Shown: piece by piece, positions 5,412-38,927 of the stretch | Layout of the letters: each line of letters opens with the position of its first letter | Position numbering within the stretch: position 1 is the stretch's first letter | Assembly: GCA_031082285.1 (NCBI GenBank) | Contig: JAVHLK010000008.1 | Coordinates: forward strand, 1 to 40,635 | DNA from: Desulfomonilaceae bacterium | GTDB taxonomy: Bacteria > Desulfobacterota > Desulfomonilia > Desulfomonilales > Desulfomonilaceae | Reading direction: 5' to 3' | DNA length: 40,635 nucleotides | The notes under the pieces: generated by a model | Told to the model about the DNA's origin: nothing | Databases searched by the model: none | Seen by the model: the letters and a program-made list of their open reading frames with translations, nothing else | Program-made: the position numbers and the translations under genes

Positions 5412-6431
5412 ATGGCACAGAATCGGGACAAAAGCGTACTCCTCGGCCATGGCGGCGGAGGAAAAATGACGGGCCGGCTTATCCGAGACGTCATCGTGCC
5501 CGCACTGGATCGAGGACGACTTGGGCCTTTGCCCGACTCCGTAGTACTGTCCGATCTTGGCGACGCCATTGCCTATACGACGGATTCTTTCACGGTTTCA
5601 CCCATCTTTTTTCCCGGAGGAGACATCGGCTCGCTGGCCGTGCATGGTACATGCAACGACCTTGCGTGCTCAGCGGCACGGCCGATGTTTTTGTCGCTGG
5701 GCCTGATCCTGGAAGAAGGCCTGCCCATGGACCAACTGGAGAGAATCCTTCACAGTGTGTCCGAAGCAGCGGATGAAGCAGGCGTGGAAATCGTCACCGG
5801 GGACACTAAGGTGGTACCCAAGGGAAGTGCCGACGGAGTCTTCATCAACACTTCGGGTCTGGGTCGCGTGGACAGGTCGAATCGCGCCTTGACGGAAACA
5901 ATCTGCGAGGGCGACGAAATCTTGGTCAGCGGTCCCGTCGGGAACCACGGTATGGCGGTGATGTTGAGCCGTGCGGAATTTTCTTTCGATTTTGACTTGC
6001 AGTCGGACTCCGCGTCGATCTGGCCGGTAGTGGAGCGCCTCACGGCGCTTGGACCGGGACTCAAGTTCTTGAGGGATCCCACCCGCGGCGGATTGTCGGC
6101 CACGCTCAATGAGATCGGGTCGGCAACCGGACTGGGATTGAGAATAGAGGAATCCGCAATCCCTTTGGACAAGCCCGTGCTGGCGGCAGCGGAGATGCTG
6201 GGCATCGATCCCCTGCAGGCGGCCAATGAGGGGAAGGTCGTTGCAGTGGTGGGAAGGGGCCTTGGTTCAAAGGCCCTCGATATCCTTCGAGACTGCCGGC
6301 AGGCGGCGGGGTCCGCGGTTATCGGCAAGATCACCGCGGAAAACCCGTCAAAGGTGATCCTGACCACCAGGATCGGAGGCGCCAGGGTCCTGGCCGAACC
6401 GTCGGGCGAGCTCTTGCCGAGAATATGCTGA
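5412..6431 (+). CDS. hypE: Hydrogenase maturation protein HypE
   Basis: HypE is a PurM/AIR-synthase-like ATPase that dehydrates the thiocarboxamide made by HypF to a thiocyanate on its C-terminal cysteine and donates CN to the HypC-HypD iron. The 339-residue product has the N-terminal GHGGGGKMT, the DPTRGG nucleotide-binding motif in the second half, and ends exactly in PRIC, the family's cyanide-carrying C-terminus. It follows hypD after 4 bp, completing a hypCDE transcription unit. hypA, hypB, hypF and the hydrogenase genes are not in this window and must be elsewhere if the pathway works. Confidence 0.97.
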   Translation: MAQNRDKSVLLGHGGGGKMTGRLIRDVIVPALDRGRLGPLPDSVVLSDLGDAIAYTTDSFTVSPIFFPGGDIGSLAVHGTCNDLACSAARPMFLSLGLILEEGLPMDQLERILHSVSEAADEAGVEIVTGDTKVVPKGSADGVFINTSGLGRVDRSNRALTETICEGDEILVSGPVGNHGMAVMLSRAEFSFDFDLQSDSASIWPVVERLTALGPGLKFLRDPTRGGLSATLNEIGSATGLGLRIEESAIPLDKPVLAAAEMLGIDPLQAANEGKVVAVVGRGLGSKALDILRDCRQAAGSAVIGKITAENPSKVILTTRIGGARVLAEPSGELLPRIC

Positions 6432-6546
6432 CGCCGCTCCTCTCGTCACGGAGACGGTTGACGCCGTTTCTTCGCCGCGACCGATTCGGCATCGGCTACT
6501 TGAGGCTTCTAGACGCTCATTGAATGCATTTCATAAGGGACGACCG

Positions 6547-34206: not shown

Positions 34207-35595
34207 CTACAGCTCGTAAGAGATCTCTGAGATCGTTGCGAGAATCTTATCCATATATGACTCAGCTTCATCACGAGTGAACAGGCTCGCCGCGGTTGCC
34301 GCCACCAGGTTTAGTCTGTTCAGATACACGTACGCGATAAGGGTCAGCGGGGTGCTCGAAAGCAGCTTGTAACCCACGCCGTGGATCTCGGTGATAACCG
34401 TGTCCTTGATGTTGATGAGGTAGGAATTGTCGCTCGGTCTACCGTTCTCCACGATCGGCCAGACTACCCCCAACATGGTCACGGACACGGAGAATTGGTG
34501 TTTCTGAATTAGATTATGGACAAGCCGTCGTCGTGCCGGGTAGGGCAGGAACCGCACGATGTCGGTCATTCTCGATATGTTCCCCCGGACCTCCAGGTCT
34601 CTCTGTTTTCGGAGCTTTCTCATTCTCACGGACGATACGGACCGCGCAAAACGTCCCACGTCCCGCCTCTCTTCCGGATTCGAACGGAAAAACAGGACGC
34701 TTGTGGTGTTCGGAGCCTGCAATCCCTCATACCTTCCCTGGATGTTCACCGTCATGGCCGTGGTGATTAATCCCTGCTCCACGTTGCGTTCGAGATTCCA
34801 ATCGTCCAGAGCCAGGTTCGCGGCAACCACCAGAAGGTCGACCGGCCGAATGCCGGCCTTGGCGCACGACCGACTGATCCGTGCCGTGTCCTCGACCGAG
34901 AGCATTCTCTTCACGTGGTACTGTCCCGGATCTCCTCTGTCGCCGTGCCCGACGGGTAAGGTCGGTTTCACGCCGAGAGCTCGGAGCGCTTCCGCAGTGC
35001 TCTTAAGCGAATCCTTCCAATTACGGGTTGCCGCTTGAACCCTCCTCTTCCCGGCCGTAGACAACGATTGGGTGGGGGGGGACGATTCGGGGTTCGTTCC
35101 CGTCACCATCTCGCGATAATTTAACGCAGTGAACTTGCCGAATTCCGACGCCACGGCCGCGTCCGCGGCCACGTGATGAATGACCGGCGCCAAGACATGA
35201 TGATCGTGTGCAAAGCTCACCACGTGAAACTCACCCGGCAACTCCTCGAAAAGGTTCCAGTCCCTCTCCAAACTCGGTTCAATCGTTCGGAGAAAATCAT
35301 CGATCACCGGCGTCGAAGGATCTCTGTCCGAAACTTTCCAGAGCTTGATCGGAAATTCCAGGTCCGGCCTGGGGTGCCACGCCAGGTAGTATCTTCCCCT
35401 GCGTCTCACTTCACTGATGCTGCACCCGAGCTGAGGAAAATCTCGGGCCGTGGAGATCACGGCGCGCTTCAACGCACCCAGTTCCAGAGGACCTCTAATC
35501 TCCGCGCCCGTAACGACGAGGTTCCTCGTGTTGCCGAAGGTGGAGAGCGCCACCAGTTCGGAAGCTTCATTGAGCAGTCTGTGGTCGTGTGACAT
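34207..35595 (-). CDS. Condensation-domain-like acyltransferase (CAT superfamily)
   Basis: The 462-residue protein has the fold pattern of NRPS condensation domains and PapA/WES-type acyltransferases. The active-site motif is IHHVAADAAV with His140, His141 and Asp145 (HHxxxD; the usual following Gly is Ala). The second half includes NTTSVLFFRSNPEER and the C-terminal stretch FSVSVTMLGVVWP. There is no carrier protein or adenylation domain around it, so it may transfer an acyl group from CoA or a free carrier onto an alcohol or amine; substrate unknown. AGGAGGAC lies 5 nt before the ATG. It converges with the FtsX-type gene (23 bp gap) and is divergent from the zinc locus. Confidence 0.75.
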   Translation of the reverse strand: MSHDHRLLNEASELVALSTFGNTRNLVVTGAEIRGPLELGALKRAVISTARDFPQLGCSISEVRRRGRYYLAWHPRPDLEFPIKLWKVSDRDPSTPVIDDFLRTIEPSLERDWNLFEELPGEFHVVSFAHDHHVLAPVIHHVAADAAVASEFGKFTALNYREMVTGTNPESSPPTQSLSTAGKRRVQAATRNWKDSLKSTAEALRALGVKPTLPVGHGDRGDPGQYHVKRMLSVEDTARISRSCAKAGIRPVDLLVVAANLALDDWNLERNVEQGLITTAMTVNIQGRYEGLQAPNTTSVLFFRSNPEERRDVGRFARSVSSVRMRKLRKQRDLEVRGNISRMTDIVRFLPYPARRRLVHNLIQKHQFSVSVTMLGVVWPIVENGRPSDNSYLINIKDTVITEIHGVGYKLLSSTPLTLIAYVYLNRLNLVAATAASLFTRDEAESYMDKILATISEISYEL

Positions 35596-35661: not shown

Positions 35662-35689
35662 TTGACAAGACGGTAATACCGCGTATTAT
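35662..35689 (+). promoter_or_regulatory. Sigma-70-type promoter with a palindrome over the -10 (zinc locus)
   Basis: TTGACA (35662-35667) and TATTAT (35684-35689) are 16 bp apart. An inverted repeat TAATAC-CGC-GTATTA (35674-35688) covers most of the -10 region, a good position for repression. The downstream gene encodes a ribbon-helix-helix protein, which typically binds such short inverted repeats. Confidence 0.6.
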
Positions 35690-35751
35690 CTCCACAGGTC
35701 GATTTGTGCCCGCAACCTAATTGAACCTACGCACCATTCGAGGTCCGGCTC

Positions 35752-36030
35752 ATGTCTGATGAGAGACAAAAGGTCATCACGTTCAAAGTCCCGGAGACGC
35801 TTGAAGAGGCAATGAAAGGGATACCCAATCGGTCTGAATTCATCCGGAATGCGATTCTCTCCGCACTCGACCAGTTGTGCCCTCTGTGCCGGGGTACGGG
35901 GATTCTGGCTCCCAATCAGCAGAGACATTGGGCGCAGTTTGCCAGAGATCACTCGGTGGAGCAGTGCGGACGGTGCAAGGCCGTGCATTTGGTCTGCAAA
36001 TGCGGCTCTGAGAACGATCTGCACTCATGA
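35752..36030 (+). CDS. Ribbon-helix-helix protein with Cys/His-rich C-terminus, candidate zinc-responsive regulator
   Basis: The 92-residue protein has an N-terminal CopG-like RHH pattern (VITFKVPETLEEAMKGI as the strand and first helix, PNRSEFIRNAILSALDQL as the second helix). The second half is rich in metal ligands: Cys43/46 (CPLC), His59, His67, Cys72/75 (CGRC), His79, Cys82 and Cys84. It is followed by znuA, znuC and znuB on the same strand. The simplest reading is a repressor that senses zinc through its Cys/His part and controls the uptake genes, taking the place of Zur; this is inference from layout. GAGG lies 8 nt before the ATG. Confidence 0.7.
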   Translation: MSDERQKVITFKVPETLEEAMKGIPNRSEFIRNAILSALDQLCPLCRGTGILAPNQQRHWAQFARDHSVEQCGRCKAVHLVCKCGSENDLHS

Positions 36031-36085: not shown

Positions 36086-37084
36086 ATGAAGTCCGCAATG
36101 TGGCAGGTGACGATACTGCTTCTGTTTCTGCTCTTATCGCCGGCCGTGGCGTGTGCCGAAGGAGAGGAGGCTTCGGGCAAGATCAAGGTGTTCGTGAGTA
36201 TTCTGCCTCAAAAGTATTTTGTGGAACGGATAGGCGGTGACCGAGTCGATGTGAATGTCCTTGTCGGACCCGGCCAATCGCCTCACATGTACGATCCCAC
36301 CCCGCGTCGCCTGGCGGAGTTGTCGGAGGCGCGGGTGTTCTTCAGAATCGGCGTGCCGTTTGAGGAGATCCTGATGCCGAAGATCGAGTCTGCGTTCAAG
36401 GGCTTGGCGGTGGTCGATACGAGCAAGGGAATTCAACTGAGAGAAATGGAGTCTCATGGAGAGGAGCACGAGGCGGAAGACGCGCACGACCGTACATCGA
36501 AGGGTGAAGGGTACTCTGGAGAGGATGCCCATACGGGTACGGATCGTCACGATGCCGAGGACGGCCACAGTCACGAAGCGGGCAGTCCCGATCCGCACAT
36601 CTGGCTCGACCCGATGCGAGTAAAGATTCAGGCACGCACTATCTGTGACTCGTTGAGCATGATAGACCCTGCCGGCGCGGCGAGTTATCGGAGGAATCTG
36701 AAGCGTTTTGAAGAAGACCTCGATCGGGTGGATGCCCTGATTGCCAAGGCGCTGGCTCCCGTAAAAGGCAAGCCGATCTTTGTGTTTCATCCTGCGTACG
36801 GTTATTTTGCCGAGAGGTACGGCCTCGTCCAAACGGCGGTGGAGACGGGCGGAAAAGAACCGGGTGCCAGGCAGCTGGGTCGTCTCATTGAAAAAGCCAA
36901 GCGTGCGGATGTGAAGGTCATCTTCGTGCAGCCGCAGTTTGATATGAAGTATGCATCGACCATAGCGGAGGCGATTGGAGGCGCGGTGGTTTCCCTCGAC
37001 CCGTTGGCGCCTGACTACATTAATAATCTTGAGGACATGGCTGAAAAGGTTGGATCTGCGCTCTCCCGGAGTAGTGAGAAATGA
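36086..37084 (+). CDS. znuA: Zinc ABC transporter substrate-binding protein
   Basis: ZnuA captures Zn(II) (possibly Mn) in the periplasm and hands it to ZnuB. The 332-residue precursor starts MKSAMWQVTILLLFLLLSPA and is probably cut after VACA. Cluster A-I ligands are in place: His67 (SPHMYDP), His171 (PDPHIWLDP), a His near 236 (FVFHPAYGYF) and an Asp near 305 (SLDPLAPDY). A flexible acidic loop with at least seven histidines (residues ~124-163) is the zinc-collecting loop of ZnuA-type receptors and argues for zinc rather than manganese. GCAGGAGG precedes the ATG. Confidence 0.93.
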   Translation: MKSAMWQVTILLLFLLLSPAVACAEGEEASGKIKVFVSILPQKYFVERIGGDRVDVNVLVGPGQSPHMYDPTPRRLAELSEARVFFRIGVPFEEILMPKIESAFKGLAVVDTSKGIQLREMESHGEEHEAEDAHDRTSKGEGYSGEDAHTGTDRHDAEDGHSHEAGSPDPHIWLDPMRVKIQARTICDSLSMIDPAGAASYRRNLKRFEEDLDRVDALIAKALAPVKGKPIFVFHPAYGYFAERYGLVQTAVETGGKEPGARQLGRLIEKAKRADVKVIFVQPQFDMKYASTIAEAIGGAVVSLDPLAPDYINNLEDMAEKVGSALSRSSEK

Positions 37085-37296
37085 CCGCGGGCATTCACCT
37101 CGGGTGATTTCTTCGGCACGAGTGTCACCGAAACCTACGCGGATTCAGGGGTTGCGGTCATGGAGTGCGGGACAGGCAGGACGGGAATCCGCAGCATACG
37201 TAAATGAATACGAACGGCGGGACTCGGGTTACGGTCCCTATCGCGCAAAGCGATGCGCGGTGGGCCAAGAAATTCTTACGGTTTGAGGAACGAACC

Positions 37297-38064
37297 ATGT
37301 CGGGACGCAGTGCGATTGTCTTGGAGAATGTTTCATTTTCGTACAACAGACACCCGGTGATTGAGGACGCGAGTCTCGCCTTGCACGAGCATCAGGTGGC
37401 CGCGGTCGTTGGACCCAACGGCGGCGGCAAGACCACACTGCTGAAACTTGTGCTCGGGCTGCTTACCCCGTCTCGGGGGTCGGTTCGCGTCTTGGACAGA
37501 TCCGCCGGTGAGGCGAGGTCGCTGGTGGGGTACATGCCGCAGCACGCGCACCTGGATCCCAAGTTCCCAATCCGTGTGACGGATGTGGTACTCATGGGAC
37601 GTATAGGTCACTCGCTGCCGTTCTGGTCTTACTCGAGATTGGACAAGGCCGTGGCCGAGCGATTGCTCCGCGACCTGCACATGTGGGAGTACCGAAACAC
37701 CCATTTTTCGGAGCTTTCCGGCGGACAGCGGCAGAGGGTGCTCATTGCACGAGCCTTGGCCACCGAGCCGGAGTTGTTGTTGCTCGACGAACCTACGGCG
37801 GGCCTCGATTTCGCGTTCGAGGCCGAGTTTTCGGAAATGCTCAAGCGTCTGAGCGAGCACCTTACGGTCGTGCTGGTTTCTCACGATCTCGGCTTTGTCG
37901 CGAAGTACGTCAACACGGTGGTGTGCGTCAATCGCAAGGTGGTCGTTCATCCAACTGCGGACATCACGGGATCGGTGGTCGATGAACTTTACGGGGAGTC
38001 GATGAAGCTGGTGAGACATGATCTCTTCAGTTCAACGGGGGTTGCACCTTGTATGAATTCCTGA
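37297..38064 (+). CDS. znuC: Zinc ABC transporter ATP-binding protein
   Basis: The 255-residue ATPase powers zinc uptake. Walker A GPNGGGKTT, a Q-loop in YMPQHAHLD, the signature SGGQRQRVLIARAL, Walker B LLLDEPTAGLD and H-loop SHD are all present. The start at 37297 has GAGGAA upstream and gives the normal N-terminus (AIVLENVSFSYN); a longer frame to 37204 adds non-coding-looking residues. The 212-bp gap after znuA contains a small stem TCACC-TCG-GGTGA but no gene. It overlaps znuB by 16 bases. Confidence 0.93.
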   Translation: MSGRSAIVLENVSFSYNRHPVIEDASLALHEHQVAAVVGPNGGGKTTLLKLVLGLLTPSRGSVRVLDRSAGEARSLVGYMPQHAHLDPKFPIRVTDVVLMGRIGHSLPFWSYSRLDKAVAERLLRDLHMWEYRNTHFSELSGGQRQRVLIARALATEPELLLLDEPTAGLDFAFEAEFSEMLKRLSEHLTVVLVSHDLGFVAKYVNTVVCVNRKVVVHPTADITGSVVDELYGESMKLVRHDLFSSTGVAPCMNS

Positions 38065-38927
38065 TCGATCTTCAACGCCACGCGTTCCTGCAGCATGCTC
38101 TTGCCGCGGGTATCCTTGCAAGTGTTGCGTCCGGCGTGGTGGGGACGTTTGTCGTGGTGAAGAGAATCAGCTATCTCGCCGGGGGAATTGCGCATTCGGT
38201 GCTCGCGGGGTTGGGTGCCGCGGTGTACCTCCGGGAATCCGGGTACTGGCCGGGTTTGGACCCGCTTTACGGAGCGGTTGTCGCCGCACTGTCGGCCGCG
38301 GTGGTGATCGGAATCGTCAGCATCCGTGCAAAAGAGAGGGAAGACACCATTATCGGCGCGTTGTGGGCCGTGGGAATGGCCACGGGGATTCTTTTCATTG
38401 CTCAGACCCCCGGGTACAACACGGACTTGATGAGCTATCTCTTCGGCAACATCCTCATGGTTTCGCGTCAGAATCTGTGGCTTATTTTTTGGCTCGATGC
38501 GCTTGTGCTGGCGCTCACTGTTCTGTTCTACAACCAGTTCCTTGCCGTGTGTTTCGACAGTGAATTTGCTCAGTTGCGAGGGCTCAGGGTTCAGGCGTTC
38601 TACATCCTGCTCCTGTGTATTACCGCTCTCACGGTCGTGGTCCTTACCACCGCGGTGGGTATTGTCTTGGTTATTGCGTTGTTGACGCTCCCTGCAGCGA
38701 TCGCGGGTGCGTACTGCAAGACCATGCGGTCCATGATGATTCTCTCGGCTCTGCTCTGTACGGTCTTCACCACGTCCGGCCTTGTGTTGAGCTACAAGCC
38801 CGATTTTCCGGCCGGTGCGACGACCATATTGGTGGCGGGAATAGTGTATTTGGGAGTTATGGTGGTCAGGAGCGTGAGGAGTCGTTTTCCCCTCACGGAC
38901 CATGAGAGCGCAACGGGCGGTCGCTGA
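38049..38927 (+). CDS. znuB: Zinc ABC transporter permease
   Basis: The 292-residue integral membrane protein has about eight helices typical of the ABC-3 metal-permease family, beginning MYEFLIDLQRHAFLQHALAA with a TTG start at 38049. Conserved features include VVVKRISYLAGGIAHSVLAG and the later TAVGIVLVIALLTLPAAIA. The short overlap with znuC implies coupled translation. A longer frame on the opposite strand here is an antisense shadow. It is the last gene of the zinc locus; the REP cluster follows. Confidence 0.93.
   Translation: MYEFLIDLQRHAFLQHALAAGILASVASGVVGTFVVVKRISYLAGGIAHSVLAGLGAAVYLRESGYWPGLDPLYGAVVAALSAAVVIGIVSIRAKEREDTIIGALWAVGMATGILFIAQTPGYNTDLMSYLFGNILMVSRQNLWLIFWLDALVLALTVLFYNQFLAVCFDSEFAQLRGLRVQAFYILLLCITALTVVVLTTAVGIVLVIALLTLPAAIAGAYCKTMRSMMILSALLCTVFTTSGLVLSYKPDFPAGATTILVAGIVYLGVMVVRSVRSRFPLTDHESATGGR

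Follow-up and report, generated by a model that had tools for sequence, protein, structure and literature searches.

The window analysed here, a stretch of 40,635 nucleotides from a Desulfomonilaceae genome, carries a short gene for a ribbon-helix-helix (RHH) protein rich in cysteine and histidine ahead of znuA, znuC and znuB. Bacterial zinc-import regulators named in the excerpt of PMC6103462 are the Fur-family Zur and the MarR-type AdcR, and NikR is the only RHH metal sensor named in the excerpt of PMC8879271. A 2004 study of delta-proteobacteria, in its excerpted text, reported that several species have znuABC but neither Zur nor Zur sites, and left 'another regulatory mechanism' open (PMC545781). 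From comparisons of sequences, we consider it quite probable that the 92-aa protein is a self-regulating repressor of zinc uptake that responds to zinc, as an analogue of Zur.

Gene order and promoter in the window

The predicted zinc-responsive repressor, a 92-aa RHH protein with a C-terminal Cys/His domain (35752..36030, + strand), was assigned from its ORF, a family search, an alignment and an AlphaFold model. That this ORF heads a znuA-znuC-znuB series, as proposed in the first-pass annotation, was confirmed: it is followed on the same strand by znuA, the metal-binding component with a His/Asp/Glu-rich loop (36086..37084; Pfam ZnuA, 3.5e-71), and by znuC and znuB, both assigned from ORFs and domain searches. 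The znuC gene encodes the ABC ATPase (about 37294..38064; start uncertain, the longest frame beginning at 37204), and znuB encodes the ABC-3 permease (38049..38927).

The annotated promoter TTGACA-N16-TATTAT was also found in a promoter scan, with the -35 hexamer TTGACA at 35662..35667 and the -10 hexamer TATTAT at 35684..35689 (both + strand), and the whole (35662-35689) agrees with the consensus at 11 of 12 positions. Since the entire scan yielded about as many promoter-like sites as shuffled sequences (3 against 2.6), the promoter alone is no evidence. A divergent gene (34207-35595, - strand) with a sub-threshold match to a condensation domain shares the intergenic region, including the operator described below; tblastn found no relative of this gene in the other 109 loci, many of which are short.

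Domains of the 92-aa protein

Six cysteines were counted in the protein, in agreement with the first-pass annotation, and the three histidines given there were corrected to four (H59, H67, H80, H91). The N-terminal half is a predicted DNA-binding RHH unit of about residues 9-41 with an NRSEFIR helix (35776..35874, + strand), based on weak or sub-threshold profiles, the model and structure matches. This half scored 15.5 bits against Pfam RHH_1, below the cut-off of 20.5, and NCBIfam aCcr1 matched the protein at 9e-06 with 25.5 bits against a cut-off of 60 bits. The AlphaFold models were moderate (pLDDT 80.5 and 82.4, pTM 0.51) and gave no metal geometry; they contained helices at residues 15-21, 27-40 and 54-63 and strands at 67-71 and 78-82, and DSSP assigned no strand ahead of helices 15-21 and 27-40 in the monomer model. 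When the whole protein was compared using VIA-align, residues 1-42 of apo-NikR were the only match at Z>=2 (Z 2.1, rmsd 2.1, 36 residues). The RHH_1 and aCcr1 profiles, the model and the apo-NikR match all point to RHH, each being below a curated threshold or weak.

The Cys/His domain (residues 43-82; 35878..35997, + strand) was delimited by the invariant residues of the alignment and reads C43-P-x-C46-x-G-x-G, H59, H67, C72-x2-C75-x6-C82. C72 and C75 fall in a hairpin turn, because the model strands are 67-71 and 78-82. The CPxCxGxG motif occurs once per chain, and the second pair in the alignment is a CxxC without GxG. The anti-TRAP profile matched at its positions 41-66 (E 6.5e-4), a short stretch in which the motif by itself may account for the match. 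Foldseek gave no match at E<=0.001 for the whole protein or for the Cys/His domain alone, and VIA-align with this domain alone gave no row at Z>=2; such an absence of fold matches does not show that the modelled fold is new. No match to the FUR domain (PF01475) or NikR_C (PF08753) was detected in the 92-aa protein at E<=1, and none to a MarR/SlyA-type Pfam domain.

Distribution and conservation of the family

A protein search (E<=0.001) found relatives in 31 of 395 genomes of the same phylum, the window's own genome (G000) included, and the relatives other than the window's own are 44-63% identical. A scan of bacterial and archaeal genomes yielded at least 190 relatives from many phyla, of which the best 80 were analysed. 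Together with 30 loci from the phylum (the 31st genome was left out), these make 110 loci with 101 distinct proteins. The deltaproteobacterial members among the loci kept include Desulfomonile, Syntrophaceae and Desulfarculaceae, and the other taxa are Planctomycetota, Bacillota, Spirochaetota, Myxococcota, Holophagae/Thermoanaerobaculales, Lentisphaerae, Hydrogenedentota, Zixiibacteriota, Eisenbacteria and others. Nearly all members from the multi-phylum scan are metagenome-assembled. No relative was matched in plasmids at E<=0.01, none was confirmed in viral contigs with a single-sequence query, which reaches close relatives only, and a profile search of 34 genomes without the family gave just two marginal partial matches.

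The window protein was aligned with the proteins of 72 of the 80 scan loci. C43, P44, C46, G48, G50, Q56, H59, H67, C72, C75 and C82 were invariant in all 73 members, so that five cysteines and two histidines are kept throughout. The conserved Cys and His residues of the window protein are thus limited to C43, C46, C72, C75, C82, H59 and H67, and its C84, H80 and H91 fall outside the invariant columns. The RHH core is likewise conserved; conservation at NRSEFIRxA was partly imposed, since this peptide was used for the scan, and that of the Cys and His residues was not.

Linkage to zinc-uptake genes

The znuA and/or znuC gene lies directly 3' of the repressor gene in all 30 phylum loci. Among the 101 distinct members, 77 immediately precede znuA and 9 immediately precede znuC. 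Another 9 have a znu match within 3 kb but in a different arrangement, 5 lack one over that distance, and the remaining member lies at a contig end. L044, one of those in another arrangement, is doubtful: its contig ends about 520 bp past the gene, and it should not be counted as linked because its znu evidence, an ATPase match at 29%, lies about 2.8 kb upstream. The expected tie between homologues and metal genes was therefore borne out by 86 of 101 members directly before znuA or znuC and by 8 more convincing cases within 3 kb.

Two loci without znu within 3 kb, L042 and L046, have both the gene and the site. A search of the L042 genome for ZnuA relatives gave none at E<=1e-10. At L046, the repressor gene is followed by a His-rich membrane-like protein (5510-6469, + strand) without a Pfam or NCBIfam match, which is possibly a different zinc importer. 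Divergent transporters occur at some loci, namely L018/L110 (ZnuA 27% identity), L082, L104 and L065. At L110 (G057:C242), a NikR_C gene was seen about 1.2 kb from the RHH gene, beyond the divergent ZnuA-like protein (27% identity).

The transported metal was judged from the linked ZnuA proteins. Manganese proteins have Glu at the third-ligand position. The third metal ligand is His in 73 of 84 linked ZnuA proteins by pattern and Glu in none, which argues for zinc; 11 were unmatched by the pattern, and among six of these, several have His by eye. At least four His residues precede DPHxW in 50 of the 84.

A two-box operator over the promoter

The operator pattern was GTAWTAC-N3-GTAWTAC, that is, two 7-bp boxes with centres 10 bp apart. 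With at most two mismatches in 14 positions, it was found within 300 bp upstream of 100 of the 110 loci. Other spacers from 0 to 15 gave at most 19 of 110 loci (9 for spacer 13 and 5 for spacer 14, at <=2 mismatches), and equally sized control windows on the downstream side, which existed for 108 of the 110 loci, gave none at <=2 mismatches and one at 3. Counted by distinct members, 92 of 101 have a site with <=3 mismatches, 91 with <=2 and 24 a perfect one. The pattern was derived from the first 30 loci and counted on all 110, so those 30 are no independent test; the independent test is provided by the later loci, some on the same contigs, and by the trans sites described below. Because the sites were picked with this pattern, the column counts around them carry a bias.

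The predicted operator of the window, assigned from these pattern counts, is GTAATAC-CGC-GTATTAT (35673..35689, without assigned strand), two 7-bp palindromic boxes of which the second contains the -10 hexamer. The inverted repeat TAATAC-CGC-GTATTA noted previously is present at 35674-35688 and does overlap the -10, and is better described as these two boxes, spaced by one turn of the helix, than as a single 15-bp repeat. GTAATAC and GTATTAC are mutual reverse complements, so a pair of boxes reads as direct or inverted depending on the middle base, and an inverted repeat was perceived at the window site because of this double reading. The conserved palindrome anticipated upstream of homologues thus exists, at 100 of 110 loci against 0 of 108 downstream controls, and also before orphan znuA genes.

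The window operator is the only match at <=1 mismatch in its genome (5,615,179 bases), and 60 Markov sequences as long as the window gave none when position 5 was fixed as T. Twenty sites with two mismatches in the same genome were taken as chance, the reversed control pattern giving 25 in all. Of the 92 distinct sites, 54 have a TTGACA-like hexamer (<=1 mismatch) that begins 4-24 bp ahead of the operator, mostly at 8-12 bp; 0.07 would be expected per site. For 44 of these 54, a spacer of 17 bp would place the start of the -10 within the second box, as in the window.

Outside the family, a perfect GTAATAC-N3-GTAATAC (L173, 1501-1517) was observed in G348, a genome without the family, 21 bp before a gene for a 74-aa RHH antitoxin-like protein with a RelE-like neighbour, both named by eye. 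Because the same two-box pattern precedes this gene, the box alone does not mean zinc, and the two-box site can apparently serve other RHH proteins.

Sites away from the repressor gene

Nine of the 101 members have no site in the 300 bp upstream. At L038 and L061, the gene is the last in a znuACB operon and a site with one mismatch lies 48 and 101 bp before the znuA match; at L052 and L094, the operon occupies the other strand, convergent with the gene, and a perfect site lies 41 and 79 bp before the znuA match. L030 has a doubtful 1-mismatch site 511 bp upstream. L048, L095 and L072 are lone repressor genes in spirochaete genomes, and all three genomes have a site before znuA or a ZnuA-like gene: a perfect site before znuA for L048, a 1-mismatch site 43 bp before znuA for L095, and one with a single mismatch, where a ZnuA-like gene begins, for L072. 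Perfect sites were also seen in two related spirochaete genomes (L210, site 1122; L211, site 1501). At L073, the gene stands before znuACB without a site, and the genome-wide count of the pattern was 6 against 5 for the control. Six genomes of the nine znuC-headed loci without an adjacent znuA were searched (G102, G282, G321, G053, G196 and G358), and each of the six has a site (<=1 mismatch) immediately upstream of a znuA at another place. Judged from these arrangements, the operator follows znuA rather than the repressor gene.

Seven perfect sites lie away from the gene in family-bearing genomes. Those of G172, G053 and G196 precede a gene for a small Cys/His protein and then one for a TonB-dependent receptor, which was identified by profile in G196 (TonB_dep_Rec, 4.6e-57) and by similar sequence in the other two. 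The small Cys/His-rich protein, of 129 aa at L153 (3091-3477, + strand) and with counterparts in L147 and L151, has no Pfam or NCBIfam match. A perfect site of G358 precedes a porin of the LbtU type (LbtU family, 211 bits, cut-off 90), and another (L149, site 2971) has nothing zinc-like recognisable beside it. The perfect site of G102 lies between znuA and an outer-membrane-like gene, and that of G312 lies 214 bp before a similar gene. The two large outer-membrane-like proteins (L157, 3243-5030, + strand; L161, 913-2793, - strand) resemble each other, have a perfect site 274 and 214 bp upstream and gave no Pfam or NCBIfam match at E<=0.01; by the position of their sites they are candidate zinc porins.

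At <=1 mismatch, the 30 family-bearing genomes other than G000 contain 50 sites against 21 for the reversed control, and the 34 genomes without the family contain 22 against 50, the pattern being the rarer there. The review of extra sites covered 20 regions and left out G312:C2, G251:C146, G367:C2:61509 and G306:C13; those in L158, L159, L160, L162, L165 and L166, with no zinc-like gene in reach, were taken as chance. Two of the 30 genomes searched, G349 and G291, have no site at <=1 mismatch, and G349 has a 2-mismatch site (L024). For 17 znu loci outside the family and three second transporters of family-bearing genomes, no site was found at <=1 mismatch and two at 2 mismatches. One of these two, in G013, which lacks the family, lies just before znuA, adjoining a Fur-family gene (L195). 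G015 shares its taxonomic family with seven family-bearing genomes and has znuC and znuB 53 and 60% identical to those of the window; neither the gene nor the site is present there.

Fur-family proteins beside znu genes

None of 30 family-bearing genomes has a Fur-family gene within 5 kb of znuB, against 6 of 22 others (Fisher p 0.0037). The count includes genomes with a znuB match, taken at the best place in each; G272 has no match, and the place in G057 belongs to a second transporter with 35% identity. On this distance, local regulation of znu by Fur proteins was rejected for all 30 family-bearing genomes. No Fur-family gene was found in three family-bearing genomes that are 97-100% complete (G206, G207 and G157). 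Both the rarity of Fur beside znu and these three genomes support the suggestion that the family may stand in for Zur at these znu genes. A Zur that acts from a distance could be among the three Fur-family proteins of the window genome, and a distant Zur is conceivable in the other family-bearing genomes too, G206, G207 and G157 apart.

Comparison with known systems

The protein resembles NikR in having an RHH DNA-binding half and a C-terminal metal domain; NikR represses metal uptake, and the N-terminus of apo-NikR was the sole structural match at Z>=2. Predicted NikR half-sites of delta-proteobacteria, GTGTTAC/GTAACAC in the excerpt of PMC545781, are one base from the GTATTAC/GTAATAC of the family. 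However, the NikR half-sites given there are 13 or 14 bp apart and the boxes of the family 3 bp, and the 92-aa protein lacks NikR_C, which is encoded by a separate gene in 19 of the 31 family-bearing genomes. NikR as the owner of the operator was ruled out by spacing (spacer 3 in 100 of 110 loci, spacer 13 in 9, spacer 14 in 5).

The linkage of the regulator to znuABC and the TonB receptors in its predicted regulon resemble what is described for Zur in the excerpts of PMC6103462 and PMC545781, whereas the 92-aa protein has no Fur-family match and the Zur operator differs, being ATGCAACNNNGTTGCAT in Desulfovibrio according to the excerpt of PMC545781. AdcR is likewise a non-Fur regulator of zinc import, but belongs to the MarR/SlyA family (PMC6103462, excerpt), for which no Pfam match was found here. 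The earlier proposal of a solution different from Zur and AdcR agrees with these domain searches, and by domain the protein is neither NikR nor Zur. The CPxCxGxG motif of its Cys/His domain is shared with anti-TRAP and DnaJ. The zinc domains of these proteins use two CxxCxGxG-like motifs per chain, whereas one CPxCxGxG motif per chain is present here; two CP-x-C motifs are seen in anti-TRAP alignments. Anti-TRAP binds TRAP and is not known to be a DNA-binding repressor.

Proposed mechanism and alternative explanations

RHH proteins bind DNA as dimers and can occupy neighbouring sites, as do MetJ and Arc, and an arrangement in which two dimers share one face of the DNA would fit a pair of 7-bp palindromes whose centres are 10 bp apart. 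In the proposed mechanism, the C-terminal Cys/His domain would bind Zn(II), probably with a structural site formed by the two CxxC pairs and a more labile site using H59, H67 and C82, both ligand assignments being putative. When zinc is plentiful, RHH dimers would sit side by side, one per GTAWTAC box, and would cover the -10 or start region of their own znu operon and of other zinc-uptake genes, shutting out RNA polymerase. When zinc is scarce, the repressor would release the DNA and so permit expression of znuACB, of receptors or porins in the outer membrane, and of its own gene. At the level of sequence, this is supported by the family itself, its znu linkage, the shared operator over promoter-like sequence, the trans sites and the rarity of Fur.

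The protein might instead control znu and sense another metal or thiol oxidation, with the Cys/His domain serving as a structural zinc finger or a redox switch. CPxCxGxG domains serve as zinc sites in DnaJ and anti-TRAP, to which the weak profile matches refer, and the divergent transporters at L018/L110 (ZnuA 27% identity), L082, L104 and L065 and the NikR_C gene about 1.2 kb away in G057 would fit such a role. However, 73 of 84 linked ZnuA proteins have His as the third ligand and none has Glu, and NikR_C is a separate gene in 19 of 31 family-bearing genomes. Moreover, the ligands exceed the need of one structural site, because H59, H67 and C82 are invariant besides the two CxxC pairs. Sensing of another signal is thus considered unlikely.

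The direction of the response in the repressor model is deduced, which leaves some room for an activator, or for an apo-form repressor that is released by zinc. Such behaviour is improbable: the window operator overlaps the predicted -10, as do most operators among the 54 of 92 sites that have a -35-like hexamer close by, and repression by the zinc-bound form is what one would expect of a gene located in an uptake operon. The perfect two-box site before the RHH antitoxin-like and RelE-like pair in G348 could also suggest an RHH antitoxin or plasmid-type regulator which stands beside znu by chance and autoregulates through its own site, but this can hardly be reconciled with a znu linkage across many phyla and with trans sites before orphan znuA genes, and its probability is very low. 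The interpretation as a zinc sensor, first made for this gene as a candidate, is largely supported by the sequence comparisons.

Implications for zinc regulation

Beyond the window, the members likely form a widespread family of zinc sensors in which Zur is replaced by an RHH repressor that carries a Cys/His zinc domain of its own and acts on a two-box operator. The same reading, held with equal confidence, covers many largely uncultured lineages and outer-membrane receptors in some genomes, and would make this the first description of the family. Metal-responsive uptake repressors are already known; what is new is the pairing of these domains and this operator in such a repressor. A search of the open-access literature, with PMC5387054 (CopG, zinc uptake) left out, found no RHH regulator of znu genes. 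The family is a candidate for the regulatory gap left in 2004, in relatives of the family (PMC545781, excerpt). It gives a defined operator to scan for, and this operator predicts outer-membrane proteins of no known role as parts of zinc uptake. These results point to a so far undescribed zinc-uptake switch unrelated to Zur.
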